From Mucilaginibacter tolerans (GTDB lineage Bacteria > Bacteroidota > Bacteroidia > Sphingobacteriales > Sphingobacteriaceae): DNA of 64,000 bases. How positions within the stretch are numbered: the stretch's first letter is position 1; the number at the start of each line of letters is the position of its first letter. The notes under the pieces were generated by a model that searched no databases, was not told the origin of the DNA, and worked only from the letters and a program-made list of their open reading frames with translations. Below, one piece after another: positions 1 to 10,792 of the stretch. The stretch spans positions 1-64,000 of the forward strand of contig NZ_JAUMKB010000006.1 in NCBI RefSeq assembly GCF_030519375.1, read 5' to 3'. Made by a program: the position numbers and the translations under genes.

Positions 1-1
1 A

Positions 2-103
2 AAAGACATAAAAGAATATATTGACTACTACAATAGAGAAAGAATCAAACTCAATTTAAACGGGATGAGCCCGATAAATTATCGGGCTCATCATTACAAT
101 TAA
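2..103 (+). CDS. IS3-family transposase OrfB, C-terminal fragment cut by window edge
   Basis: Reading from base 2 gives 33 residues up to the TAA at 101-103. They contain the pattern YIDYYNRERIKLNLNGMSP followed by YR, the usual C-terminal signature of IS3-group DDE transposases (Y-I-x-x-Y-N-x-x-R-x-x-x-x-L-x-G-x-S-P-x-x-Y-R). This tail follows the catalytic core, which lies upstream of the window. Whether the full gene is intact cannot be seen. Confidence 0.75.
   Translation, partial: KDIKEYIDYYNRERIKLNLNGMSPINYRAHHYN
64..92. repeat. Perfect 13-bp hairpin at the end of the transposase gene
   Basis: GATGAGCCCGATA (64-76) is followed by a 3-nt loop and its exact reverse complement (80-92). 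It lies inside the last codons of the transposase and just upstream of the IS end. It could act as a transcription stop or as protection from readthrough at the element border. The downstream run is only T-rich (TTAATTTTTAA), so terminator function is inferred. Confidence 0.55.
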
Positions 104-262
104 TTTTTAAATTCGTCCAACTTTTGGGGTTCAGTCCAAAATATAGGGCTCTTTTTATTGCGCCTGATTATTAGGTTGGTTTTCGTTTGAAATTAGCGTA
201 TGACTAAAAATAAAGCGAAATTTAAAAAGGCAAAGTAAGCAACCCATAATTCAATATTGCAT

Positions 263-694
263 ATGAACGTACAAGAGCAAATCGAAGAGTATATTACCGG
301 CCAGCCTGAACCAAAACGAAGTGATATGCAAGAGCTGCACCACCACATACTTCAAGTTTTACCGGATTGCAAATTATGGTTTGACAGTGGCAAAAACAGC
401 GAAAATAAAACGGTTAGCAACCCTAACATAGGCTATGGATTTTACACCATAAAATATGCTGATGGAAAGACCAGGGACTTTTTTCAAATTGGGTTGAGCG
501 CAAACACAACCGGAATCTCCGTTTATATCCTCGGCATCAAGGATAAGACCTATTTAGCCCGAACGTATGGAAAAGAACTGGGTAAGGCAAGCGTGACCGG
601 TTATTGCATTAAGTTCAAAAATTTAAATGATATAAACATTAATATACTTGAAGCGGCAATACGTTATGGGGTTGGGGTTACAAGTGAAAATTAA
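263..694 (+). CDS. DUF1801 domain protein
   Basis: A 143-residue cytosolic protein that reads as one DUF1801 (YdhG-like) domain. It has an N-terminal helix (VQEQIEEYITGQPEP), then the family core with KLWFDSGK, GYGFYTIKY, DFFQIGLSAN and ISVYILG. Proteins of this fold have no agreed function. I use the ATG at 263, six bases downstream of an in-frame TTG at 257, because ATG is the commoner start. It sits alone between the IS end and the desaturase and may be a single-gene transcript. No signal peptide or membrane segment is visible. Confidence 0.7.
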   Translation: MNVQEQIEEYITGQPEPKRSDMQELHHHILQVLPDCKLWFDSGKNSENKTVSNPNIGYGFYTIKYADGKTRDFFQIGLSANTTGISVYILGIKDKTYLARTYGKELGKASVTGYCIKFKNLNDININILEAAIRYGVGVTSEN

Positions 695-784
695 ATTTCA
701 AGCTGAGACACTACCGATTATTGAAAATTATCGAAATTTAATCCATAAACTTGCAGGCCCAATAATTACGCAAGCTAATAAATC

Positions 785-1513
785 ATGATCATCTTAGTTT
801 TTTTTCTGTGCCACTGGTTCCTGTCGCTTTTTTTCCAGACGTTCTTTCAGCACAGGTACGCATCGCACAAAATGTTTAAGATGGGTCACTTCTGGGAGAA
901 AACATTTTACTTCTGCACCTTTATTTTCCAGGGGTCTTCATTTCTAAATCCCCGCGCATATGCCATTATGCACCGTATGCATCACGCCTATAGTGATACA
1001 GAAAAAGACCCGCATTCGCCGCATTTCATTAAAGATGTGTTTGGCTTGATGATGAAAACCAAGAATATCTATCTCGAATACCAAAGATATAAAACGGAGC
1101 CCGAGCCGCAATTCCGCGACCGCTATCCTACATGGAGCTTTGTAGATAACATTGGCGACCATTGGCTGACCCGCATCTCATTCGGGGTATTATATACCTT
1201 ATTCTATGTAATTTATGCAACACATTGGTGGATGGTTCTGCTATTGCCTATACATTATCTGATGGGGCCGATACACGGCGCAATAGTTAACTGGTGCGGG
1301 CATAAATACGGTTACTCTAATTTTAACAATCACGACCACAGCAAAAATACCCTGCCGTTTGACTTCCTGATGATGGGAGAATTGTTCCAGAATAATCATC
1401 ACAAGAAACCAAATGATGCGAACTTTGCCAAGCGTTGGTTTGAATTTGATCCATCGTATCCGATCATCAAACTAATGCATGCTTTGAAAATTATTAAACT
1501 GAGAAAGACTTAA
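785..1513 (+). CDS. Acyl-CoA/acyl-lipid delta-9-type fatty acid desaturase
   Basis: A 242-residue membrane di-iron desaturase. The three histidine boxes are present: HRYASH (23-28), HRMHH (63-67) and QNNHHKK (about 202-208). A further conserved NWCGHKYGYSNF segment is present. Hydrophobic stretches at about 1-20, 40-52 and 130-155 would anchor it in the inner membrane. The enzyme family uses O2 and reductant to insert a double bond in saturated acyl chains, which tunes membrane fluidity. It is shorter than eukaryotic stearoyl-CoA desaturases and lacks a fused cytochrome b5 domain, as is usual in bacteria. Regiospecificity cannot be read from sequence. Confidence 0.88.
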   Translation: MIILVFFLCHWFLSLFFQTFFQHRYASHKMFKMGHFWEKTFYFCTFIFQGSSFLNPRAYAIMHRMHHAYSDTEKDPHSPHFIKDVFGLMMKTKNIYLEYQRYKTEPEPQFRDRYPTWSFVDNIGDHWLTRISFGVLYTLFYVIYATHWWMVLLLPIHYLMGPIHGAIVNWCGHKYGYSNFNNHDHSKNTLPFDFLMMGELFQNNHHKKPNDANFAKRWFEFDPSYPIIKLMHALKIIKLRKT

Positions 1514-1518
1514 GACCT

Positions 1519-3015
1519 CTATTTAATCAGGGATAATGCTTTTTGCAGGTCGCGATCTCTTTTGCTGATGATATCCTCAGGACTATAGTCAACCTCGCTA
1601 TCAGGTACAATACCTCGCCCGAAAGTTGATTTTTTTGCTGCAGAAACTACACGCATCCATGGGAAATCGATAACGATTTTTGTATTGGGTAAAGTTAGTT
1701 TTTGAATGGTCATCCCGTTGCAACCTTCCTCTGCACCGGCAGTTTCACGACCAATGAACTTTACATTCCTGCGCTGCGCTTTAAGAGCTGAGGTAAAAAG
1801 CGCTCCAGACGAAAAAGTAGCACCATCGATCAAAACGAATAGATTACCTTCAAAGTGGTCTGTTTTGGAAAGCGGCAACGACCCGTATACTTTTCCGAAA
1901 ACAGGCTTCGTATCGACATGATACCATGTTCCTTCCTTATTTCCCGCCTGAAAACCCTGGTTAAAGCCTCCTGTTCGGGACGTATCAAAATACTTTGCAA
2001 AATGATTCAGTGCCGGATTGGGAATCCTCGATTTCGCATCATTTATGATATTGTATGGGGCATCGGCCAGGTATGATAATAATTGGATAGCAATCCGGAT
2101 ATCGCCGCCGGTATTATGCCTGATGTCAATTATCAGATTTTTTATCACCTTGTGGCGAATTTGCCTAAATGCTTCTTTATAAATAAGCGTATCTCCGTAT
2201 TCAAATGTCTTCACTGTAAATAACGCTGTAGACGAATTATTCAGAAAACGCAGTGGTAAACGGCCGGTATTTTTCGCTTCGGTCCAATCAGCATAATTAT
2301 CAATTTGTTTGACGGCTTGAGTTTGTGAAGAGTTGCCGGTTATCGGATTTGCAGTGATCGCTTTTACTTCGCCTTGTTTTGTGCGCAATGTAATTTGATA
2401 AGGGCCGGTCCAATGGTAATATTTATTGCAGGCATCCTCAAAACCATCATACTCGCTCAAAAATAGCTCCTTAAAGGTTTCATTATATCCGTCGCCGCAA
2501 TACAAATCATACCCGTGGCTGATCACTTCTGAAACCGGAATATTATTTATCTTAACTATTTCATCACCTGTAACAAGCTCGGGTGTTTGGCTGGTTGTTA
2601 TCCATGCTCTGTGATGTTTTACCAGCACTTCAAATGGCAAGTGCGCAGCAGATACAGCCTTATAGCCGGCAGAGTGCTCTATTTGAGTATGCCCGCACCT
2701 GAGTTGACATAAGAAAGGATAAACATGATCAACAAATTCAGCCTCAGAAAGCGGAGCATTGATGGAGTTATAAGTTTTATTATAAACTTTTTGCAATGTG
2801 TCTGGCGGAGTATAAATGCCATATCCCGGATGCAGCTCTTTAATTGCCGACCAAAGGACAGAAAGGTCGTCGTGCATATCTTTAACAGCTATCTTTTGTG
2901 TAACTGTATCAGGATTTACTACTTTATTATCGATGGGAGTTTTGCAGCTCGTAATTAAAAAGGCGATCGGCGCATAAAGTGCGGCTTGAAAAATAATTCT
3001 CTTTTTTTGTTTCAT
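1519..3015 (-). CDS. S41-family peptidase, lipoprotein
   Basis: A 498-residue protein with an N-terminal hydrophobic stretch ending in the lipobox LITSC (Cys24), so probably an outer-membrane or periplasmic lipoprotein. The C-terminal half carries the tail-specific protease (S41) core: IIDIRHNTGGD, then VLIDGATFSSGAL with candidate catalytic Ser402, then GRETAG. A PDZ-like segment around TGDEIVKINNIPVSEV precedes it. Such proteins cleave peptides or unfolded protein tails in the envelope; the substrate is unknown. It lies 29 bp downstream of the symporter gene on the same strand, so the two may be cotranscribed. Confidence 0.85.
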   Translation of the reverse strand: MKQKKRIIFQAALYAPIAFLITSCKTPIDNKVVNPDTVTQKIAVKDMHDDLSVLWSAIKELHPGYGIYTPPDTLQKVYNKTYNSINAPLSEAEFVDHVYPFLCQLRCGHTQIEHSAGYKAVSAAHLPFEVLVKHHRAWITTSQTPELVTGDEIVKINNIPVSEVISHGYDLYCGDGYNETFKELFLSEYDGFEDACNKYYHWTGPYQITLRTKQGEVKAITANPITGNSSQTQAVKQIDNYADWTEAKNTGRLPLRFLNNSSTALFTVKTFEYGDTLIYKEAFRQIRHKVIKNLIIDIRHNTGGDIRIAIQLLSYLADAPYNIINDAKSRIPNPALNHFAKYFDTSRTGGFNQGFQAGNKEGTWYHVDTKPVFGKVYGSLPLSKTDHFEGNLFVLIDGATFSSGALFTSALKAQRRNVKFIGRETAGAEEGCNGMTIQKLTLPNTKIVIDFPWMRVVSAAKKSTFGRGIVPDSEVDYSPEDIISKRDRDLQKALSLIK

Positions 3016-3044
3016 TATGTATGTAATAAGATTTGAAGATTTAT

Positions 3045-4379
3045 CTATTGCTCCCTAAACCTGCTGAAGAAGACAAATGCGGTAAAGCATAATATAAATC
3101 CGCAAACACAGCTTAGACGCAACCCCTGGTCATGCCCGGGGTCTTTGCCATATATAGTGAGAAAAGCAAACGCTGCGATACCAAATGTTTGCCCCATCTT
3201 AACAAACAGGTATTTGACGGCAAAGAACATCCCTTCGCGATTCTCGCCCGTTTCCTTCGCATCGTTTTGAGCTATTTCGGCCAAAATTGCATTTGGCAGA
3301 ATGCCCAACGCCGCCAGTGGGAACGAGGTGCAAAGTACCAATGCATAGGCCTGCAAATAGGGTGATGCTGGAAATCTCCCTAAAAAATACATCGCAATAA
3401 AAATCAGGCTTTGCAAAGCGAATGCAAATAAGACCAAAGGCTTTTTTCCTATACGCCTTGACAAGTAATTGATAAGCGGATAAAAAACCAACGACAGAAC
3501 CACCATTGCACCCATTAACGCTCCACCAATAGATTCGGGCAGATTGAGCAGAACCGTAACAAAATAAAGCATGCCACTTGAAATAACACTCAGCGACATA
3601 TAAAATGAAAAATCTGAAATAAGATAATATTTAAAGTTGTCATTACTGAACGTCTTCCTGATCGCAGTTAAGATTGGAAGATGCGACGGCTTGCTGATAG
3701 AATATTTCTTCTCATCAATAGCTAAAACTGGTATCAACATCACTATACCTGCTAACCCAGCCAGACCCCAGATGGTGTATTGTACGGATTGGTCGCGGTT
3801 AGTTATATGGAAAACATGCTCTACTACATCTGCATAATTATTTACAGATGCTGCGATGATGATGCCCAATACAAAACCCGCCTGCTGGAAAGAGGCTAGC
3901 TTTACTTTTTCTTCGGCAGTGTCAGTTAATTCGGGCAGTAAAGCATTGTATGGGATAACATATGCCGTTACGCTCATGAAAAATAAGGTCATTGTGATAG
4001 TCAGCCATTCTGCATTTGTAATGCTCTGTTTCATCGCTAGCGGATAAAAAGTGAGACAACAGAATATTATCGCAGGGACAATGGCCCATTTCATAAACGG
4101 TATACGCCGTCCTTTAGGATTTTGGCTTTTATCGCTCAGCGAGGCAATAAGCGGGTCGAATACGGCGTCAATAAAACGCCCGGATGCTGCGATAACAGAA
4201 AGGATATTCACTACCCCGAAAAGCAACAGTTGCGGAACCAGTGGTACAAGCCCGGCATTGGAAGGAGGCAGGTAAAAATAGGGCAACATCACGATAATAA
4301 GGTTAGTCATGATACTCCAGCCCACCATTCCGCAGGCATAGGCTATCTGTTTGCTCAAAGGTAGTTTTGCAGCAGGCAT
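3045..4379 (-). CDS. MFS transporter of the glycoside-pentoside-hexuronide (MelB-like) group
   Basis: A 444-residue, very hydrophobic protein with about 12 predicted membrane helices. The motif DAVFDPLIASLSDKSQNPKG near residues 67-87 followed by RRIPF is typical of GPH cation symporters, where the acidic residues bind the coupling cation. Family members import sugars or glycosides with Na+ or H+. No carbohydrate enzyme is beside it, so the substrate cannot be assigned. It could form a short unit with the S41 peptidase (29 bp downstream) and the acetyltransferase (55 bp upstream). Confidence 0.83.
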   Translation of the reverse strand: MPAAKLPLSKQIAYACGMVGWSIMTNLIIVMLPYFYLPPSNAGLVPLVPQLLLFGVVNILSVIAASGRFIDAVFDPLIASLSDKSQNPKGRRIPFMKWAIVPAIIFCCLTFYPLAMKQSITNAEWLTITMTLFFMSVTAYVIPYNALLPELTDTAEEKVKLASFQQAGFVLGIIIAASVNNYADVVEHVFHITNRDQSVQYTIWGLAGLAGIVMLIPVLAIDEKKYSISKPSHLPILTAIRKTFSNDNFKYYLISDFSFYMSLSVISSGMLYFVTVLLNLPESIGGALMGAMVVLSLVFYPLINYLSRRIGKKPLVLFAFALQSLIFIAMYFLGRFPASPYLQAYALVLCTSFPLAALGILPNAILAEIAQNDAKETGENREGMFFAVKYLFVKMGQTFGIAAFAFLTIYGKDPGHDQGLRLSCVCGFILCFTAFVFFSRFREQ

Positions 4380-4434
4380 TTACTGCAAGATGCGAAATAT
4401 TTTTGGCTGAACGGTGGGGTTAACGCCCCAAAAA

Positions 4435-4896
4435 TCAAATGTTTTTGCGGTAAACCACAAAGCCGGATTTCTCGGCAACCTTGTCGTAAAGAGCCATCGC
4501 AGTTGAGTTTGTTTCGTGCGTTTGCCAGTATACACGGCTTGAGCCTGCTAACCGGGCTTGTTCGTATACTTCGGTGATCAATGCTCTTGCGACACCCTTT
4601 CCACGTGCTGATTCTGTTGTAAATAAATCCTGCAAATAGCAATTGGGGCCAATAGCAATAGTCGTCCTGTGAAAAATGTAATGCGTTAAACCGATTAGTT
4701 TCCCTTCACTTTCCGCAACTAAACAATGAACAGGTTCATAACCGTCAAAAAACCGGCCCCAGGTTATTTTGGTAATTTCTTCGGATAGTGCGGTTGGCCC
4801 GGAGCGGCCATAAAAGGAGTTATAGCCTTCCCATAGCGGGAGCCATTGATAGTAATCCTCGCGGGTTACAGGACGGATGGTGAAGTTGATTGACAT
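4435..4896 (-). CDS. GNAT-family N-acetyltransferase
   Basis: A 153-residue single-domain acetyltransferase. The acetyl-CoA binding loop is visible as ESARGKGVARALI (about residues 94-106), after the strand NCYLQDLFTT. The late segment QTHETNSTAMALYDKV is typical of the fourth GNAT motif. The family moves acetyl from acetyl-CoA to an amine; the acceptor is not predictable. It reads towards the symporter gene 55 bp away. Confidence 0.85.
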   Translation of the reverse strand: MSINFTIRPVTREDYYQWLPLWEGYNSFYGRSGPTALSEEITKITWGRFFDGYEPVHCLVAESEGKLIGLTHYIFHRTTIAIGPNCYLQDLFTTESARGKGVARALITEVYEQARLAGSSRVYWQTHETNSTAMALYDKVAEKSGFVVYRKNI

Positions 4897-5084
4897 TTTG
4901 CAAAGAAATTTAATGCAAAATGCGAATTCTGTTTGAAATAAATTCCCTGCTTGGAATGGGGTGCGGCTGAATCGTGAAGTGGCAGGGAGGGGTTTCTACG
5001 TCTGGTAAATTCATTAGCCCCTACCTTCCCTTCCCCTAGAAGGGAATCACACTTCCCATTCCACTTTAAAATTTTCAATGCAAC
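4897..5084. repeat. Intergenic spacer with CCTTCCC/GGGAAGG-type hairpin
   Basis: This 188-bp spacer holds no convincing gene. TTCCCTT (5026-5032) pairs with AAGGGAA (5040-5046) around a short C-rich loop. The block of CCCTACCTTCCC text resembles the pyrimidine-rich spacer at 17704-17815, so it may be a degraded copy of a dispersed element. It could also stop transcription from either side. Confidence 0.4.
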
Positions 5085-5864
5085 CTACAACCCCGAATAA
5101 TAATCATACCCCTGTTCGGCCCAGTAATCGCGCGGGCGGGAATTACTGAAGGTGATAGTACCAATGCGTTTTAAGTTTTTGATGCCATATTTCACCGGGA
5201 TGATTAGCCGGAGCGGTTGTCCGTGGTTGCCATTCAATAACTCATCGTTCATTTGGTATGCGAGCAAAGTTTGCGGGTGAATGGCGCTCGGCATATCAAT
5301 ACCGACATAGTATTGCTTGTCGGGAGTTTCAAGACCCACATAGCCCATATTCGCTTCCGCATCGAGCTGGTAATGTTTCATAAAATCGCGAAAACTCACT
5401 CCTTCCCAATGCGATATCTGGTCCCAGCCTTCCACGCATTTAAAATCGTAGGTGATCTCTGTTTTGGGCAATTTCATCAACTCATCCAGGGTGATCTGCA
5501 ACGTTTCGCCGTTAGCCTTTTTTACCTGTAATTTCCAGTTTTCAGGCGGCAGTTTCCCTTCAGAGCCAATATCACTGTTATGACGTATCTTTTTAGCTGC
5601 CATTTCACGCGGATAGGTTTTTACCAGGTGATTTTCATTAAACGTCAGCCGCCTGAAAAACAGCTCAGTTTTATTTAATGCCTTCCTTAAAGGCTGATGG
5701 GCTCCGGCTGTAATGCCGGGCGTTTCATCAGGTGATTTATACAGCCAGCGCCATCCGCCATAAGCGGCCGCGGCATAGGCGCCAAAAATGGTAAACGAGA
5801 TGAAATTTCTGCGCTTTATCTTTTGCTCTGTGGTCAATTCTGTCTTAGACTTTTTCATCTTCAT
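5085..5864 (-). CDS. Molybdopterin-dependent oxidoreductase, MsrP/YedY-like, Tat-exported
   Basis: A 259-residue sulfite-oxidase-fold protein. The N-terminus has a twin-arginine signal, KRRNFISF (17-24), before a hydrophobic stretch, so it should be exported folded with its cofactor. The molybdenum ligand is Cys143 in DFKCVEGW. The C-terminal block GQPLRLIIPVKYGIKNLKRI matches the MsrP family. MsrP reduces methionine sulfoxide in periplasmic proteins with electrons from a membrane haem protein. Its start overlaps the cytochrome b gene by 20 bp, which makes that cytochrome the likely electron donor. Substrate is inferred from the family and from the nearby methionine-rich peptide; it could also act on another S- or N-oxide. 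Confidence 0.85.
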   Translation of the reverse strand: MKMKKSKTELTTEQKIKRRNFISFTIFGAYAAAAYGGWRWLYKSPDETPGITAGAHQPLRKALNKTELFFRRLTFNENHLVKTYPREMAAKKIRHNSDIGSEGKLPPENWKLQVKKANGETLQITLDELMKLPKTEITYDFKCVEGWDQISHWEGVSFRDFMKHYQLDAEANMGYVGLETPDKQYYVGIDMPSAIHPQTLLAYQMNDELLNGNHGQPLRLIIPVKYGIKNLKRIGTITFSNSRPRDYWAEQGYDYYSGL

Positions 5865-6546
5865 TGCTATTATTTTCTACAACAGGTTGAGGTTGCTCAT
5901 TCACCACTTCAAAACCGGAAATAACCGACCGGAAATTGTTCCACCCAGCCAGGATTACCTGTACAACATGCACCAGGAAAAATAAAACATAACCAATGGT
6001 AAGCACAAAATGCCATATACGGGCTAAATGATAGCCCCCGCACAGCCAACACAACCAGTTGAATTGCACAGGTTTATAAATCGCCAGCCCTGTAATTAGT
6101 GAACCAACGCCCATGATGATAATAGCCGTATACGCAATGCGTTGAGCCGCATTATATTTATCCTGTGGTGGTGCGGTTTTGCGGATATGAAGATCGTGCA
6201 GCAATACCAGCCATGCTTCTTTAAATGAGTGCCGGTTGGGCACCAATTGCCTCCACTCGCCCGAGATAATGGTGTATAGCACATAGAAAAATCCGTTCAG
6301 CGCAAAAAACCACATAAACAGGAAATGAAAGGCCATTCCCTCAGCTAGTCGCTGTGGTATGTGCAGCCATTGGTAATACCAATCCGGGAAGAAACGCACA
6401 TAGGTATGCCCAAACAGGGTGATGCTGTACTCGTCATTTGCCCAGTAGATCAGCATACCGCTCCATATCATTATGGCCAGTATCGGGAAGTTGACCCAGT
6501 GGGTCCATCGCATTACCAAAGGGTGCTTTTCTTTGATGACTTTCAT
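5845..6546 (-). CDS. Cytochrome b/b561-type membrane protein
   Basis: A 233-residue integral membrane protein with about four to five helices and histidines suited to bind haem b: HPLVMRWTHWVN near the start, MAFHFLFMWF, and ARIWHFVLT with LVHVVQV near the end. It resembles thiosulfate reductase and formate dehydrogenase cytochrome b subunits rather than the MsrQ (YedZ) family. The gene lies 7 bp downstream of the DUF1223 gene and overlaps the oxidoreductase gene by 20 bp. It probably passes quinol electrons to that periplasmic enzyme. Confidence 0.82.
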   Translation of the reverse strand: MKVIKEKHPLVMRWTHWVNFPILAIMIWSGMLIYWANDEYSITLFGHTYVRFFPDWYYQWLHIPQRLAEGMAFHFLFMWFFALNGFFYVLYTIISGEWRQLVPNRHSFKEAWLVLLHDLHIRKTAPPQDKYNAAQRIAYTAIIIMGVGSLITGLAIYKPVQFNWLCWLCGGYHLARIWHFVLTIGYVLFFLVHVVQVILAGWNNFRSVISGFEVVNEQPQPVVENNSNEDEKV

Positions 6547-6553
6547 AATTTAT

Positions 6554-7351
6554 TTAGAGTTTAGCACTAACATTGGAAGGGAACTGCGCTTTCGTTGCTC
6601 CTGTAATCTCCCCATTCGATGTATATTGTACAAATCCGATTAACTCAAATTTCTGCGGATCAAAACCATGAGGCAAAGCTATAGTTTCGGTACCAATTCC
6701 ATTGTTTTTTAATGAAACGCTTTTTAGTAGGGTTACTATTTGAACATGCGCCAAAGTACGCCCGCCGTTCTCGCCGCCCTTAACTTTGCTGACCGCATTT
6801 TTTTCTATCAGGGCAATCAATAATGCGGAATTGTTGTTCGCTCCATTAGTGTGGTATTGTATAGTGGCTTTATCACCTTCAACTTTAACATTATTAAAGC
6901 TGAGCTCTGTTTTTGCAGATTTTTCTAATCCCGAGGCTATAGCATTGCGTAAACTCTTTTCATCCGACCCTAAAGATTCCGTCCGTCCGTTTACAATAAC
7001 CTGCGGCGTATACACCTCTGATTTCAGCCACCTGCTGTATTGGTATTGACGGCTGGAATAATCATGGTTGCTAAAAATATCCTTCCAACCCAAACGGTTC
7101 CAGTAATCTACATGGAATGCTAAAATGTAAACCGGCTTATCAGCGCTTTCTTTTTGCACCTTGGCTACCAGGGCATCGGCAGGGGGGCAACTTGAACAGC
7201 CTTCGGAAGTAAAGAGCTCAACTACAGCAAAACCCTTTCCCGTAGCTTCAGGTCTATTGATATCCTTGTTTGTTATGGCGATAAATGCTTCCGTTAATAA
7301 CCCTGTCAACCCGAGACAGATCAATGCGATAAATATTCTGAAAGATCTCAT
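6554..7351 (-). CDS. DUF1223 thioredoxin-fold protein, exported
   Basis: A 265-residue protein with an N-terminal hydrophobic signal or anchor (about 5-25). The DUF1223 hallmark follows: VVELFTSEGCSSCPPADAL, with a Cys52-x-x-Cys55 pair, then LAFHVDYWNRLGW and VYTPQVIVNG. The fold is thioredoxin-like and the cysteine pair suggests thiol redox work in the periplasm, but no member has a firmly known reaction. It is the first gene of the operon leading to the cytochrome and oxidoreductase. Its predicted promoter (7392-7420) is the same type as that of the ECF sigma gene facing it. Confidence 0.85.
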   Translation of the reverse strand: MRSFRIFIALICLGLTGLLTEAFIAITNKDINRPEATGKGFAVVELFTSEGCSSCPPADALVAKVQKESADKPVYILAFHVDYWNRLGWKDIFSNHDYSSRQYQYSRWLKSEVYTPQVIVNGRTESLGSDEKSLRNAIASGLEKSAKTELSFNNVKVEGDKATIQYHTNGANNNSALLIALIEKNAVSKVKGGENGGRTLAHVQIVTLLKSVSLKNNGIGTETIALPHGFDPQKFELIGFVQYTSNGEITGATKAQFPSNVSAKL

Positions 7352-7391
7352 TTTTTTGTTTTTAAATTAGACTGATATCTCATTTACGCAG

Positions 7392-7420
7392 TTAGTCGGC
7401 ATGTGATTTGGTTCCTTACA
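7392..7420 (-). promoter_or_regulatory. Predicted ECF-sigma promoter for the DUF1223 operon
   Basis: On the minus strand TGTAAGG (7420-7414) and CGACTAA (7398-7392) are separated by exactly 15 bases. Both hexamer-like boxes and the spacing are identical to the copies before the sigma gene and the methionine-rich peptide gene. A transcript would start near 7385, about 34 nt before the DUF1223 ATG. The assignment to the neighbouring sigma factor is inference. Confidence 0.75.
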
Positions 7421-7473
7421 ATAAATTTAAAGTTTTTTACACATACCCGACACAAAAATTTCTGCCGGACAAT

Positions 7474-7502
7474 TGTAAGGATATAAACAGACGCACGACT
7501 AA
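7474..7502 (+). promoter_or_regulatory. Predicted autoregulated ECF-sigma promoter
   Basis: TGTAAGG (7474-7480), 15-nt spacer, CGACTAA (7496-7502). It ends 22 bp before the ATG of the sigma gene, so the leader would be short. ECF sigma factors usually activate their own gene, and their -10 boxes often contain CG followed by a T/A-rich tail, which fits. Confidence 0.75.
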
Positions 7503-7524
7503 CCTGTAATAACCATCAGCATTA

Positions 7525-8100
7525 ATGACAACCAAAATACACCAGCTTGAACCCCGGCACTGGGTAGCAGCACACGCCGATTACCTGTTTACCTATGCAA
7601 TTGCCCGCATAAATGACGAGGAGCAAGCTAAAGACCTGGTGCAGGAAACCTTCTTAGCCGCACTACAAAAGGTGGCTAAATTTGAAGGGAAAAGCGCCGA
7701 ACGCACCTGGCTTACTGCGATATTGAAATATAAGATTATCGATCTTTACCGAAAAAAATCATCGGGCCTGGCTATAAATGTCGATGTGCAACAGGCAGAG
7801 CAGGAGCAATCTGACTTTTTTGAACCCGAATATGGCCATTGGAACCTGGAGCGTGCACCCCAGTCATTTGGCATTGATGATCACGACCCGGTTGTGAATA
7901 AGGAATTCAACAGCATCCTGCAAAAATGTATGCAAAAACTACCTGCGTTGTGGCTGTCTGTTTTTACGATGAAGCACATGGACGACGAAACGACGGATGT
8001 GATCTGTTCTGAACTAAAAGTAACCCCGTCGAATTTCTGGGTAATTATCCATCGCGCAAAACTTAACCTGAGGGCATGCCTTCAAAAAAACTGGATCTGA
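7525..8100 (+). CDS. ECF-type RNA polymerase sigma factor
   Basis: A 191-residue sigma-70 family protein of ECF size. Region 2 covers about 16-75 (YLFTYAIARINDEEQAKDLV, QETFLAAL, then RTWLTAILKYKIIDLYRKK). Region 4 covers about 135-190 (LPALWLSVFTMKHMDDETT, a helix-turn-helix, then NFWVIIHRAKLNLRACL). It should direct RNA polymerase to a stress regulon. Only 2 bp separate it from the anti-sigma gene. Three matching promoters nearby imply that it controls itself, the peptide gene and the divergent redox operon. In architecture it resembles the SigF type that senses reactive chlorine in Azospira. Confidence 0.9.
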   Translation: MTTKIHQLEPRHWVAAHADYLFTYAIARINDEEQAKDLVQETFLAALQKVAKFEGKSAERTWLTAILKYKIIDLYRKKSSGLAINVDVQQAEQEQSDFFEPEYGHWNLERAPQSFGIDDHDPVVNKEFNSILQKCMQKLPALWLSVFTMKHMDDETTDVICSELKVTPSNFWVIIHRAKLNLRACLQKNWI

Positions 8101-8102
8101 CT

Positions 8103-8378
8103 ATGGAAACCTTAAAGAAAATTCAAAACAATTGCCATAAGGCTACCTTTTTGATCGAGAAGAAACTGATTGGTCGTATCACCCTGCGCGAAAAGATCGA
8201 ATTAAAGATACACCTGTTTGGATGCGGAATATGCCGCACTTACCAAAAGCAAACTATTAAGATCAGCCAAATGGTACGCCGGCTGTTTAGTGACTCGGCA
8301 AATTCTGAAAAGCACCTGGACGATACCTTTAAAAAGGACCTGCAGGACAGGATTGAGAATGAACTGGATAAAAATTAA
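8103..8378 (+). CDS. Small zinc-finger anti-sigma factor, soluble
   Basis: A 91-residue protein starting at the ATG at 8103, 2 bp after the sigma stop; an upstream in-frame start at 8076 would overlap the sigma gene and is less likely. The zf-HC2 (ZAS) pattern is visible: Cys11, then His37-x3-Cys41-x2-Cys44. There is no membrane helix, so it should act in the cytosol, unlike most anti-sigmas. ZAS proteins hold their sigma factor and release it on thiol oxidation or metal change. A redox trigger fits the neighbouring genes but is inferred. Confidence 0.8.
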   Translation: METLKKIQNNCHKATFLIEKKLIGRITLREKIELKIHLFGCGICRTYQKQTIKISQMVRRLFSDSANSEKHLDDTFKKDLQDRIENELDKN

Positions 8379-8385
8379 AATTCCC

Positions 8386-8414
8386 TGTAAGGTTTGTTTT
8401 TAGTGCCCGACTAA
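8386..8414 (+). promoter_or_regulatory. Predicted ECF-sigma promoter for the Met-rich peptide gene
   Basis: TGTAAGG (8386-8392), 15-nt spacer, CGACTAA (8408-8414), the third exact copy in this locus. It begins 7 bp after the anti-sigma stop and lies 45 bp before the ATG of the peptide gene. This gives the peptide its own strong start in addition to any readthrough. Confidence 0.75.
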
Positions 8415-8459
8415 TGGGTAAAAGTATTAGAAACCATTATTAAAACTAAAAACAACAGT

Positions 8460-8678
8460 ATGAAAGCAATTTCGAAATTAGTTATGGCTGCGGCAGTTGC
8501 GGCTTGCTTTACCATCAGCGCTCAGGCATCAGTTAAGGGCTTACCAGTTGATACAGGTAAGATGGCCAAAATGGATCATAAAATGGACAAGAAAATGGGC
8601 AAGATGGACCACAAGATGGATAAGAAAATGGATAAGATGAAGAAGGGCAAAATGTCAAAAGATACAACCAAGATGTGA
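8460..8678 (+). CDS. Secreted methionine/lysine-rich peptide, MrpX-like
   Basis: A 72-residue protein with a clear signal peptide (MKAISKLVMAAAVAACFTIS, cleavage near AQAS at about 22-24). The mature part of about 49 residues has ten methionines, each preceded by lysine, in repeats of the form KMDHKMDKKM. It has no cysteine and almost no hydrophobic core, so it is likely unfolded. Azospira MrpX is a comparable periplasmic Met-rich peptide that is oxidised by hypochlorite and then repaired by YedY. The context here (ECF sigma, anti-sigma, MsrP-like enzyme) supports the same sacrificial role. Metal binding through Met, Asp and His is an alternative. Confidence 0.78.
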   Translation: MKAISKLVMAAAVAACFTISAQASVKGLPVDTGKMAKMDHKMDKKMGKMDHKMDKKMDKMKKGKMSKDTTKM

Positions 8679-8701
8679 GTTGTTTTTGTTTTTTGATGAA
8701 G

Positions 8702-8719
8702 AGGGGGATTTATCCCCCT
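8702..8719. terminator. Hairpin between convergent peptide and acetyltransferase genes
   Basis: AGGGGGA (8702-8708) pairs with TCCCCCT (8713-8719) across a TTTA loop, followed by TATTTG. It lies between two convergent genes and overlaps the last codon of the acetyltransferase, as bidirectional terminators often do. Confidence 0.65.
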
Positions 8720-9225
8720 TATTTGTTGACCATCATGCTGAAGAAAGCCAGTTCTTCCCCGTCCCTGTAAAAATCAGCCATCCGTATCAGTCCGGCCTTT
8801 TCCAGTACTTTTTGAGAACCGGTATTACCCAGTGTGGTTACCCCTACAATTTCTTTCGCGTCAGTATGCGTCAATGCATAGCTCACCATAATAATAGCCA
8901 TCTCGCTGGCAATACCTTTGCCCCAATAATTATGGCGCAGTGAATAGCCGAGTTCTATTCTCCCTTTTTCCTCGTAATAGTTCCTCAGCAGGCACATGCC
9001 GATAAAATCGCCATCAACATTGTTGAATATCCCCCAGCGGCCCAGGCTTGCATTTTGCCCGTACCCTTCAATCGCCTTTCTGAATATTTCAATCTGCTCC
9101 TTGCGGCTTCTTTTAGGCAGATGCAGGGTTACTCTCGGGTCGTCAAAAAGTGCGAGATAGGTAGCTTCTTCTTCGGGCTTAAAATCACGAATAACAAAAC
9201 GTGGCGTTTGGGCTATAATGTGCAT
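8719..9225 (-). CDS. GNAT-family N-acetyltransferase, RimJ/RimL-like
   Basis: A 168-residue acetyltransferase of the RimJ/RimL type: early TPRFVIRDFKPEEEATYLAL, the central GDFIGMCLLRNYYEEKGR then ELGYSL, and the acetyl-CoA loop NYWGKGIASEMA. Relatives acetylate ribosomal protein N-termini, polyamines or antibiotics, so the substrate is open. It is convergent with the Met-rich peptide gene and shares a terminator with it. Confidence 0.85.
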   Translation of the reverse strand: MHIIAQTPRFVIRDFKPEEEATYLALFDDPRVTLHLPKRSRKEQIEIFRKAIEGYGQNASLGRWGIFNNVDGDFIGMCLLRNYYEEKGRIELGYSLRHNYWGKGIASEMAIIMVSYALTHTDAKEIVGVTTLGNTGSQKVLEKAGLIRMADFYRDGEELAFFSMMVNK

Positions 9226-9316
9226 GTTCCAAATTTATAGCATTTGTCTGAACCCTGATTTCACAGATTAAAGGATTTACATGAGTATGATACATGATTG
9301 ATTTATTGCAAATATG

Positions 9317-9324
9317 TACTTTTG
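9317..9324 (+). promoter_or_regulatory. -7 promoter element of hisS, close to ATG
   Basis: TACTTTTG matches the Bacteroidota -7 consensus TAnnTTTG and ends only 4 nt before the ATG at 9329. Transcription would start at about the start codon, giving a leaderless mRNA. A good -33 TTTG was not found at the normal distance. Confidence 0.55.
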
Positions 9325-9328
9325 CCGA

Positions 9329-10792
9329 ATGGCATCCATCAAACCATCTGTACCCAAAGGCACCCGTGACTTCTCTCCGGCCGAAATGGCTAAGCGTAAC
9401 CATATTTTTGATACCATTAAAAGCGTATTCCGCAAATATGGCTATCAGCAGATAGAAACGCCTGCTATGGAGAATTTGAGCACGCTGATGGGTAAATATG
9501 GGGATGAAGGGGATAAGTTGATATTTAAGATACTAAATAGTGGAAATTTTATTGATCAACGACGAGTACTTGCACTAATAGCAGAAATCCATAAACATAT
9601 TGATCAGGGTTACTCCAATAGCGACGAGCTGGCAGAGGCGACGAAAAAAGCGCAGGAGAAACCAGAAGTTATTGAGTTAAACGCGCAAATAAGAAATCTC
9701 GTAGAGACAGAAAAAGCCCTTCGCTACGACCTCACCGTGCCTTTTGCCCGTTACGTGGTGATGCACCAGAACGAGATCACCTTCCCGTTTAAACGTTTCC
9801 AGGTGCAGCCTGTTTGGCGTGCGGACAGACCGCAGCGTGGCCGTTACCGTGAGTTTTACCAGTGCGATGCGGATGTCGTAGGTTCCGATTCATTGCTGAA
9901 TGAAGCTGAATTTGTGATGATCTACGACGAAGCTTTAGGCAAATTAGGGTTGAAAGATTTCGCCATAAAAATAAATAATAGAAAAATTCTATCTGGAATA
10001 GCAGAAATTATAGATAAAAGCGATCATATAATAGATTTAACAGTTGCGATAGATAAGCTCGATAAAATTGGGCTTGATGGTGTAACTAAAGAGCTGCTGG
10101 AGAGAGGATTTACGCAAGCAGATATTGAAAAAATAAAGCCGGTAATACTGCTGCAAGGCACAAATGAGGCCAAATTAGCCAGCTTGCGCGATACCCTTGC
10201 AAAATCGGAGACAGGCTTGAAAGGCTGCGACGAAATACAGACTGTATTAGATTACATTGCCGACTTCAAACTCAAAACTGCCAAACTGGAACTCGACATC
10301 ACCCTTGCACGAGGGTTGAATTATTACACCGGAGCGATCTTCGAAGTAAAGACCAACGAGGTTGCAATGGGCAGCATTGGCGGTGGTGGAAGATATGATG
10401 ACCTGACAGGTATGTTTGGTTTGAAAGGCTTAACAGGTGTAGGTATATCCTTTGGCGCCGACCGCATTTATGATGTAATGGAAGAGCTGAACTTGTTCCC
10501 GGGAGCCGCAAGCCAGGGTACTCAGGTGCTTATTTGTTGCTTTGATAAGGAAGGCGAACGGTATGCCTTGCCGCTATTGCAGCAACTGAGGGAGAAGGAT
10601 GTTTCTGCTGAATTGTACCCCGCAGGTGCCAAGATCAAAAAGCAGATGGAGTATGCCAACAACAAGCAGATCCCTTATACCATCCTGATCGGCAGCGAAG
10701 AAATGCAAAGCGGATTGTTAGCATTTAAAGATATGGCAAGTGGTGTCCAGGAAAAATTGCGTGCAGAAGAAATTATTAATCGCTTAAAATAA
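9329..10792 (+). CDS. hisS: Histidine-tRNA ligase
   Basis: A 487-residue class II synthetase that charges tRNA-His. Visible family blocks are PKGTRDFSP (9-17), [15 protein letters not shown] (130-144), [20 protein letters not shown] with the following [21 protein letters not shown], and GGGGRYDDL. The C-terminal anticodon domain follows. The start at MASIKPS is chosen because the -7 element ends 4 nt before it; an upstream ATG at 9314 lies before that element. Residues about 73-128 form a longer insertion than usual between motif 1 and the RYDLTVP block, and its DNA is more AT-rich than the flanks. Confidence 0.93.

Follow-up and report, generated by a model that had tools for sequence, protein, structure and literature searches.

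A candidate methionine-oxidation defence regulon under a Neisseria-type sigma switch in Mucilaginibacter tolerans and related Bacteroidota

The soil-type bacterium Mucilaginibacter tolerans carries, within the 64,000-nucleotide stretch of contig NZ_JAUMKB010000006.1 analysed here (positions 1 to 64,000, in the following called the window), six genes on two strands encoding an extracytoplasmic function (ECF) sigma factor, a soluble zinc anti-sigma factor, a methionine-rich secreted peptide, a DUF1223 protein, a b561-type cytochrome b and a molybdenum cofactor (Moco) enzyme resembling the methionine sulfoxide reductase MsrP. We propose, with a probability of about 0.8, that these genes belong to a regulon which defends Sphingobacteriaceae and related Bacteroidota against methionine oxidation, by means of a zinc switch, a peptide scavenger and two repair routes. 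An earlier reading of the letters alone (the sequence-only reading) had listed the same six genes. Pfam and NCBIfam searches together with the sequence confirmed this list, and the coordinates 5085-8678 proved correct for the part lying in the window; the regulon reaches further, to msrA and msrB genes elsewhere in the genome.

The genes are tied together by a promoter. The pattern TGTAAGG-N15-CGACTAA is found exactly before each of the three units of the locus, with a spacer of 15 nucleotides (nt) throughout. Shuffling the window 100 times with dinucleotides preserved gave a mean of 0.00 matches, which bears out the claim of the sequence-only reading that one promoter type stands ahead of each unit. 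A pattern search of the whole genome (5.2 Mb) revealed, besides the three exact sites in the window, three sites with one mismatch. The first lies 67 nt ahead of a gene for MsrA and the second 32 nt ahead of a gene for MsrB; by eye, both proteins have a lipoprotein-like N-terminus and are secreted. The third and weakest site, contained in the end of the gene before it, lies 172 nt ahead of a DsbD_N gene (Pfam), the next gene being DsbD-like by eye. With up to two mismatches, 25 sites were obtained versus 52 (19 + 33) for the pattern read backwards, and two-mismatch sites are therefore regarded as noise. The genome encodes two MsrA and three MsrB proteins, and the cytosolic MsrA and cytosolic MsrB paralogues are without a promoter site.

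We compared 60 genomes, 37 of them of the same genus (M. tolerans included), using a preset cut-off of E 1e-20 for sigma matches, TGTAAGG-N15-CGACWAA as promoter pattern and the backwards pattern as control. The genomes are related, and the counts are descriptive rather than independent. Promoter sites are present in 29 of the 35 genomes with a sigma match and in none of the 25 genomes without; the control gave four matches over all 60 genomes. Within the genus, a sigma factor of at least 50% identity, a line drawn after the list was seen, is encoded in 28 of the 37 genomes. Precisely these 28 have sites (104), and the other nine have none. One genome of another family (G049) has four. Outside the M. 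tolerans genome, the first gene downstream of 103 sites encodes the sigma factor (24), DUF1223 (17), a methionine-rich peptide (16), MsrB (11), MsrA (9) or the anti-sigma factor (1), amounting to 78 of the 103 sites; 21 sites precede other genes, and four sites without an open reading frame (ORF) within 300 nt were kept in the count. The distance from site to ATG is 1-162 nt, with class medians of 17-47. Sites before msrA and/or msrB were found in 15 of the 27 other sigma-bearing genomes of the genus. The flanks of 216 Bacteroidota sites (the search pattern itself fixes the core) are T-rich upstream, TTT-rich after TGTAAGG and A-rich at positions 6-9 nt after CGAC(T/A)AA. Comparison across genomes thus supports the prediction that the sigma factor reads TGTAAGG-N15-CGACTAA promoters.

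Some sites are worth describing individually. In three genomes (G031, G017 and G013) an exact promoter is located 30-31 nt ahead of a gene that by eye encodes a TonB-dependent-receptor-like protein. In G025 the promoter precedes a gene for a DUF417 membrane protein, presumably of the same family as RclC, a hypochlorous acid (HOCl) response protein of E. coli. RclC is described without a family name in the available part of PMC7464077. Positions 3400-9800 of locus L110 (genome G001) harbour two sigma genes and seven exact promoter sites together with ABM-like, AhpC-like and cupin-like genes, the last recognised by eye. Despite these two sigma genes and seven exact sites, no match to the MsrP enzyme was found in the G001 genome.

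Absence of the gene set from relatives would have counted against the sequence-only reading; the set does recur. At least 553 loci were found, and the best 80 of them were inspected; they come from Mucilaginibacter, Pedobacter, Chitinophaga, Dyadobacter, Xanthocytophaga, Arcticibacter, Puia and others, overlap with the 60-genome set and in part stem two to a genome, and their counts are not independent. An anti-sigma match follows the sigma gene in all 80. Where enough DNA was at hand, a divergent cytochrome-MsrP pair is present in 51 of 75 loci and DUF1223 in 46 of 75. A methionine-rich ORF lies at most 1600 nt downstream of the sigma gene in 43 of 76 loci (background 0.011 per stretch), and the loci contain 145 promoter sites versus 0 for the backwards pattern. 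Both Dyadobacter loci have MsrB in line with MsrP and the cytochrome. In two genomes of the genus (G013 and G031) the sigma/anti-sigma pair is duplicated; the additional pair diverges from MsrB-MsrA and has the same promoter type.

When 296 genomes were drawn evenly across the phylum, 19 had a sigma match at E 1e-45 or better, and 16 of these were newly fetched. Among these 16, three genomes of the same family have exact sites, two of them also the cytochrome-MsrP pair and a methionine-rich peptide. Two deep relatives from distant families (L287 and L288; sigma identity 44-47%) encode very methionine-rich, secreted-looking proteins (20 and 33 methionines) and MsrB within about 5 kb, an arrangement which suggests an old association. 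The remaining 11 show only an anti-sigma gene or nothing recognisable nearby. The shared promoter, the sites before MsrA and MsrB and the co-occurrence of sigma factor and sites uphold the earlier claim of one regulon with a methionine-oxidation theme. Judged from these sequence comparisons, of which those reaching beyond the window carry the most weight, it is a conserved methionine-oxidation regulon (Table 1). Looser promoter matches inside distant sigma genes were discarded, being coding sequence of conserved region-4 codons. In locus L118 (genome G057), which encodes a distant sigma relative, GTAAGG-N15-CGTCTAA with the Neisseria form of the -10 element follows closely on the anti-sigma gene (position 5810); this site may be real.

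Table 1. Features of the M. tolerans locus, by position in the window
Feature	Position	Strand	Evidence
MsrP-like (YedY-type) Moco enzyme, 259 aa	5085-5864	-	PF00174, E 1.9e-30; Tat-like RRNFIS motif
Active-site C-V-E-G-W of the Moco enzyme	5424-5438	-	alignment to 1xdq; FKC(V/I)EGW in 56/56 relatives
b561-type cytochrome b	5845-6546	-	PF01292, E 7.4e-17
DUF1223 protein, thioredoxin-like fold, first gene of the divergent operon	6554-7351	-	PF06764, E 2.7e-54; 2axo
CSSC (CxxC) of DUF1223	7187-7198	-	sequence; both Cys in 54/54 aligned rows
Predicted promoter TGTAAGG-N15-CGACTAA before the DUF1223-cytochrome-MsrP operon	7392-7420	-	exact pattern match
Predicted promoter TGTAAGG-N15-CGACTAA before the sigma gene (autoregulation)	7474-7502	+	exact pattern match
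ECF sigma factor, TIGR02943-like, Neisseria sigmaE-type	7525-8100	+	TIGR02937, 71 bits vs cut-off 42.9
Cytoplasmic zinc anti-sigma factor (ZAS), 100 aa, overlapping the end of the sigma gene	8076-8378	+	family matches under cut-off; zinc motif
ZAS motif C-X25-H-X3-C-X2-C inside the anti-sigma factor	8133-8234	+	sequence; same spacing in 77/80 relatives
Predicted promoter TGTAAGG-N15-CGACTAA before the methionine-rich peptide gene	8386-8414	+	exact pattern match
Methionine-rich peptide, 72 aa, signal peptide judged by eye	8460-8678	+	sequence

The sequence-only reading had taken the SigF/NrsF pair as the closest regulator, and this assignment is not supported. The ECF sigma factor is 36% identical over 160 amino acids (aa) to a gonococcal sigmaE-type sigma factor (91.7 bits), as compared to 26.9 bits over 57 aa for one NrsF-linked SigF. 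In a tree of 24 rows with weak inner support this single SigF is separated from all other rows by a very long branch. The best specific model for our sigma factor is TIGR02943, with 153.9 bits under the cut-off of 162.2. The family matches of the anti-sigma factor also stay under cut-off (NF052368, 41.8 of 50 bits; zf-HC2, 16.8 of 22.2), and its identity as a zinc anti-sigma factor is supported by the C-X25-H-X3-C-X2-C motif, of which Cys20, His46, Cys50 and Cys53 are kept in 78 of 78 aligned rows. Exactly this spacing is found in Neisseria MseR, where the zinc residues are Cys4, His30, Cys34 and Cys37 (PMC2893595). The promoter of Neisseria sigmaE consists of the -35 element GTAAGGTT and the -10 element CGTCTAA with a conserved A six nt on (PMC2893595); the promoter here, TGTAAGGTTT / CGACTAA, has like spacing and differs in one -10 base. 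By sequence, the switch matches Neisseria sigmaE/MseR and Haemophilus RpoE2/HrsE and is not SigF/NrsF-like.

With 89.6 bits the Moco enzyme stays under the cut-off of the NCBIfam MsrP equivalog (207), and we therefore call it MsrP-like and not canonical MsrP. Its Cys-Val-Glu-x-Trp site aligns with that of the solved structure 1xdq, which we take to be E. coli YedY/MsrP, and a Tat-like RR motif is present in 52 of 56 relatives. Among ten enzymes compared from outside the phylum, the nearest are b561-coupled enzymes linked to methionine-rich peptides, all with CVEGW (Methylobacterium, 115 bits; B. contaminans, 109; an E. coli plasmid, 108; Rahnella, 102), followed by canonical MsrP with CVEAW (74-76 bits). 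Trees place the Bacteroidota clade with the peptide-linked proteobacterial clade or with canonical MsrP, neither being favoured decisively, and holding the short b561-linked enzymes together was neither rejected nor shown (p-AU 0.461). His16, His74, His179 and His193 of the cytochrome are invariant in 57 of 57 rows, and this b561-type protein is presumed to be the quinol-to-Moco electron donor. Export of the DUF1223 protein was judged from its N-terminus by eye; its fold is known from 2axo (PMC3091736). For the methionine-rich peptide no Pfam match was found, and NCBIfam gave only a sub-threshold match to BhsA (E 0.091).

On this basis we suggest how the regulon might work. In the cytoplasm, the zinc anti-sigma factor would hold the ECF sigma factor until oxidation of the Cys/His zinc site releases it, as judged from MseR, HrsE and RsrA. 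The free sigma factor would then switch on its own gene pair, the exported methionine-rich peptide and the DUF1223-b561-MsrP operon, and elsewhere on the chromosome the secreted MsrA and MsrB and perhaps DsbD. Once exported, the peptide could take up hypochlorite-like oxidants as methionine sulfoxide outside the inner membrane. From what their families do, the Moco enzyme, with quinol electrons delivered via the cytochrome, and MsrA/MsrB, with thiol electrons, would both revert the oxidised peptide and damaged proteins. The whole is probably a shield against bleach-like oxidants. Gene families, key residues, the shared promoter, its co-occurrence with the sigma factor and conservation are grounded in the present analysis; the signal, the zinc release, the role of the peptide as scavenger and the electron routes are inferred. 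We put forward more tentatively, and with some doubt, that methionine sulfoxide recycling outside the inner membrane has two arms under the Neisseria-type switch. One arm (b561-MsrP) would draw on quinol and the other (DsbD, DUF1223, secreted MsrA and MsrB) on thiols, with DUF1223 as the thioredoxin reducing the separate MsrA and MsrB; both arms may recharge one sacrificial methionine-rich peptide. DUF1223 would then take the part of the thioredoxin that is built into Neisseria Trx-MsrAB, and this long-uncharacterised family is offered a first testable role.

Several observations weigh against the proposed defence regulon. In meningococci, sigmaE expression is unchanged on oxidants (PMC2893595), and a Haemophilus rpoE2 mutant has wild-type oxidant resistance in vitro, its survival in mice being reduced (PMC7907618). 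Six genomes (G035, G043, G045, G047, G048 and G057) have a sigma relative of 33-44% identity and no exact site. At the locus itself, 24 of the 75 inspected loci with enough DNA are without the divergent operon at the expected place. The Moco enzyme is present in seven of the nine same-genus genomes lacking the sigma factor, with no such promoter near it, and in the sigma-bearing G026, G029 and G007 no exact site is found near it either; because it occurs without the sigma factor and without a nearby promoter, the enzyme has work outside the regulon. The third MsrB of M. tolerans, apparently secreted, has no promoter. The 21 sites before other genes precede those for a TonB receptor, MATE and small multidrug-type (SMR) transporters, ABM-like, YHS-type, AhpC-like, DoxX_2, DUF417, DsbD_N and Omp28-like proteins and more, several of them labelled by eye. 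The window peptide does not match the MXKDX family (TIGR02953), and the first-90-residue pieces of two relatives' peptides reach 34.1 and 15.3 bits (cut-off 41). Finally, the peptide carries MxxM patterns (MAKM, MGKM, MDKM) and histidine next to methionine, and it could bind copper.

The rival that survives best, though unlikely, is copper defence, in which the peptide would bind Cu(I) outside the inner membrane, the repair enzymes would mend copper-driven oxidation and copper would be the signal. Methionine-rich peptides can bind Cu(I), and the patterns just named fit such a role. The Neisseria sigma locus presumably encodes a cysteine-rich small protein, DUF692 and DoxX, a set which we take to be copper-linked and count for this rival. 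On one Rhizobium plasmid, cueR and a gene for a heavy-metal ATPase are located some 3 kb away from a b561-Moco pair, and the DoxX_2 and YHS-type genes after some promoter sites can be read likewise. However, among the first genes after the 103 sites, the only position surveyed, none was seen to encode a copper ATPase, Cus pump or copper chaperone, and the presence of MsrA, MsrB and an MsrP-like enzyme among the targets speaks for methionine sulfoxide.

A general envelope or thiol-stress ECF regulon with no special methionine link is quite improbable. It would accommodate the AhpC-like, DsbD_N and Omp28-like genes after some sites and the TonB, MATE and SMR genes after a few. A general thiol response does not predict, however, that 20 of the 103 sites precede MsrA or MsrB and 16 methionine-rich peptides. 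More improbable still is that the Moco enzyme is a sulfite-type dehydrogenase whose operon serves sulfur oxidation and has only the promoter in common with the rest. The enzyme shares the PF00174 superfamily, and the YedY controlled by Caulobacter SigF is annotated as sulfite oxidase (PMC3511200). The evidence from the protein itself argues otherwise: CVEGW stands where an aligned sulfite oxidase has CAGNR, and Pfam found PF00174 alone and no dimerisation domain. Moreover, 1xdq, itself labelled bacterial sulfite oxidase in the PDB, is the best solved relative (E 3.8e-14) ahead of the sulfite oxidases (1.4e-09 and weaker), and the peptide-linked enzymes outside the phylum score 102-115 bits versus 57 for one sulfite oxidase. 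That the promoter sites reflect shared ancestry or chance is very unlikely, for all the relatedness of the compared genomes and the dependence of their counts, given that the sites recur before unlinked genes at 1-162 nt from the ATG with a free spacer, are found in none of the 25 genomes without a sigma match and hardly ever occur backwards.

The proposed methionine-oxidation regulon can be compared with two kinds of known systems. The first is the sigmaE group of Neisseria and Haemophilus, which resembles the system here in the switch. MtsZ is a Moco methionine sulfoxide reductase of another family. Haemophilus RpoE2, the partner of HrsE, is HOCl- and H2O2-inducible; its targets include msrAB and mtsZ, the latter encoding a periplasmic repair enzyme (PMC7907618). 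In Neisseria, msrA/msrB is up 81-fold once MseR is removed (PMC3240639). Control of MsrA/MsrB is a common trait, deduced here from promoter sites, and so, as regards Neisseria, is autoregulation, to which the promoter of the sigma gene points in M. tolerans. RpoE2 is also described to control a DMT transporter, and one site in our survey precedes a gene for a small multidrug-type transporter. The targets differ in other respects. The available parts of the Neisseria and Haemophilus accounts mention no methionine-rich peptide, MsrP/b561 operon or DUF1223 among the targets (PMC2893595, PMC3240639, PMC7907618), and the term methionine-rich is absent from that of RpoE2 (PMC7907618). MsrA and MsrB are one gene in Neisseria and Haemophilus, with a thioredoxin domain in Neisseria, whereas they are two separate secreted proteins here, and the Neisseria sigma operon with DoxX and three further genes is absent from the window locus. 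A Klebsiella quasipneumoniae plasmid (NZ_AP026411.1, positions 1-5048 of the stretch examined) has a sigma/zf-HC2 pair convergent with genes for DUF692, a DNA-binding-domain protein, DoxX, carboxymuconolactone decarboxylase, MsrP and MsrQ, apparently a Neisseria-type switch beside MsrPQ on a conjugative plasmid. Canonical MsrPQ of enterobacteria, on this plasmid and in a second case (enzymes of 335 and 330 aa), likewise contains an MsrP-type Moco enzyme with a CVE-x-W site; there the partner is MsrQ, and here a shorter enzyme is found with a PF01292 cytochrome.

The second kind is the methionine-rich peptide systems of proteobacteria, which resemble the system here in the effectors. In Azospira suillum, MrpX-YedY1-YedZ1 is reportedly under SigF/NrsF, as described by Melnyk in 2015. 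In Brucella melitensis, BcrS/AbcS (ECF16 with a membrane anti-sigma factor, promoter TGTAAC/GCGAAT) controls an MXKDX methionine-rich peptide with MsrQP (BcrXQP), and the operons under BcrS control are induced by HOCl and add to the resistance against it (PMC8315932). As far as these systems are described, they share with our locus a methionine-rich secreted peptide, an MsrP-type Moco enzyme, a membrane heme partner and an autoregulated ECF sigma factor. Their regulator is ECF16 with a membrane anti-sigma factor of the NrsF/DUF1109 type, in contrast to the soluble zinc anti-sigma factor and other promoter found here, and DUF1223 and secreted MsrA/MsrB are additions in Bacteroidota.

Searching with the window cytochrome by tblastn found the cytochrome b of proteobacterial modules of Moco enzyme and methionine-rich peptide. 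On a Methylobacterium plasmid the genes for MXKDX, sigma, NrsF, MsrB, MsrA, cytochrome b/b6 and Moco enzyme follow one another. A plasmid of R. rhizogenes has DUF1223, cytochrome b/b6, Moco enzyme and a methionine-rich peptide, with no adjacent regulator in the stretch examined. On an E. coli plasmid (NZ_CP146683.1, 926-4899) and a Rahnella plasmid (L259, 1601-5705), genes of a two-component-type regulator adjoin those for cytochrome b/b6, Moco enzyme and MXKDX peptide; the cytochrome search matched 57 Escherichia plasmid records. All four represent the same effector module as here, with a CVEGW enzyme. The sequence-only reading had pointed to different parts, namely a cytochrome b instead of YedZ plus DUF1223; that point is not supported, as the same cytochrome-Moco-peptide module exists on proteobacterial plasmids, once beside DUF1223. 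Its suggestion of a distinct, possibly undescribed version does not hold for the cytochrome and DUF1223 as distinguishing parts and seems to hold for the combination of switch and effectors. Full-text literature searches, with most subscription papers outside their reach, found no description of such a system in Bacteroidota among the papers listed. The nearly exact rule TGTAAGG-N15-CGACWAA allows the regulon to be called from sequence in this phylum. Two lines are hereby joined which the literature, in the parts available, treats apart: the control of MsrA/MsrB by sigmaE and a zinc anti-sigma factor in Neisseria and Haemophilus, and the scavenging of hypochlorite by a methionine-rich peptide and MsrP in Azospira and Brucella. 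What is new, as far as our searches show, is the combination of a Neisseria-type switch with scavenging and repair effectors of the Azospira type under its control, in several Bacteroidota families.

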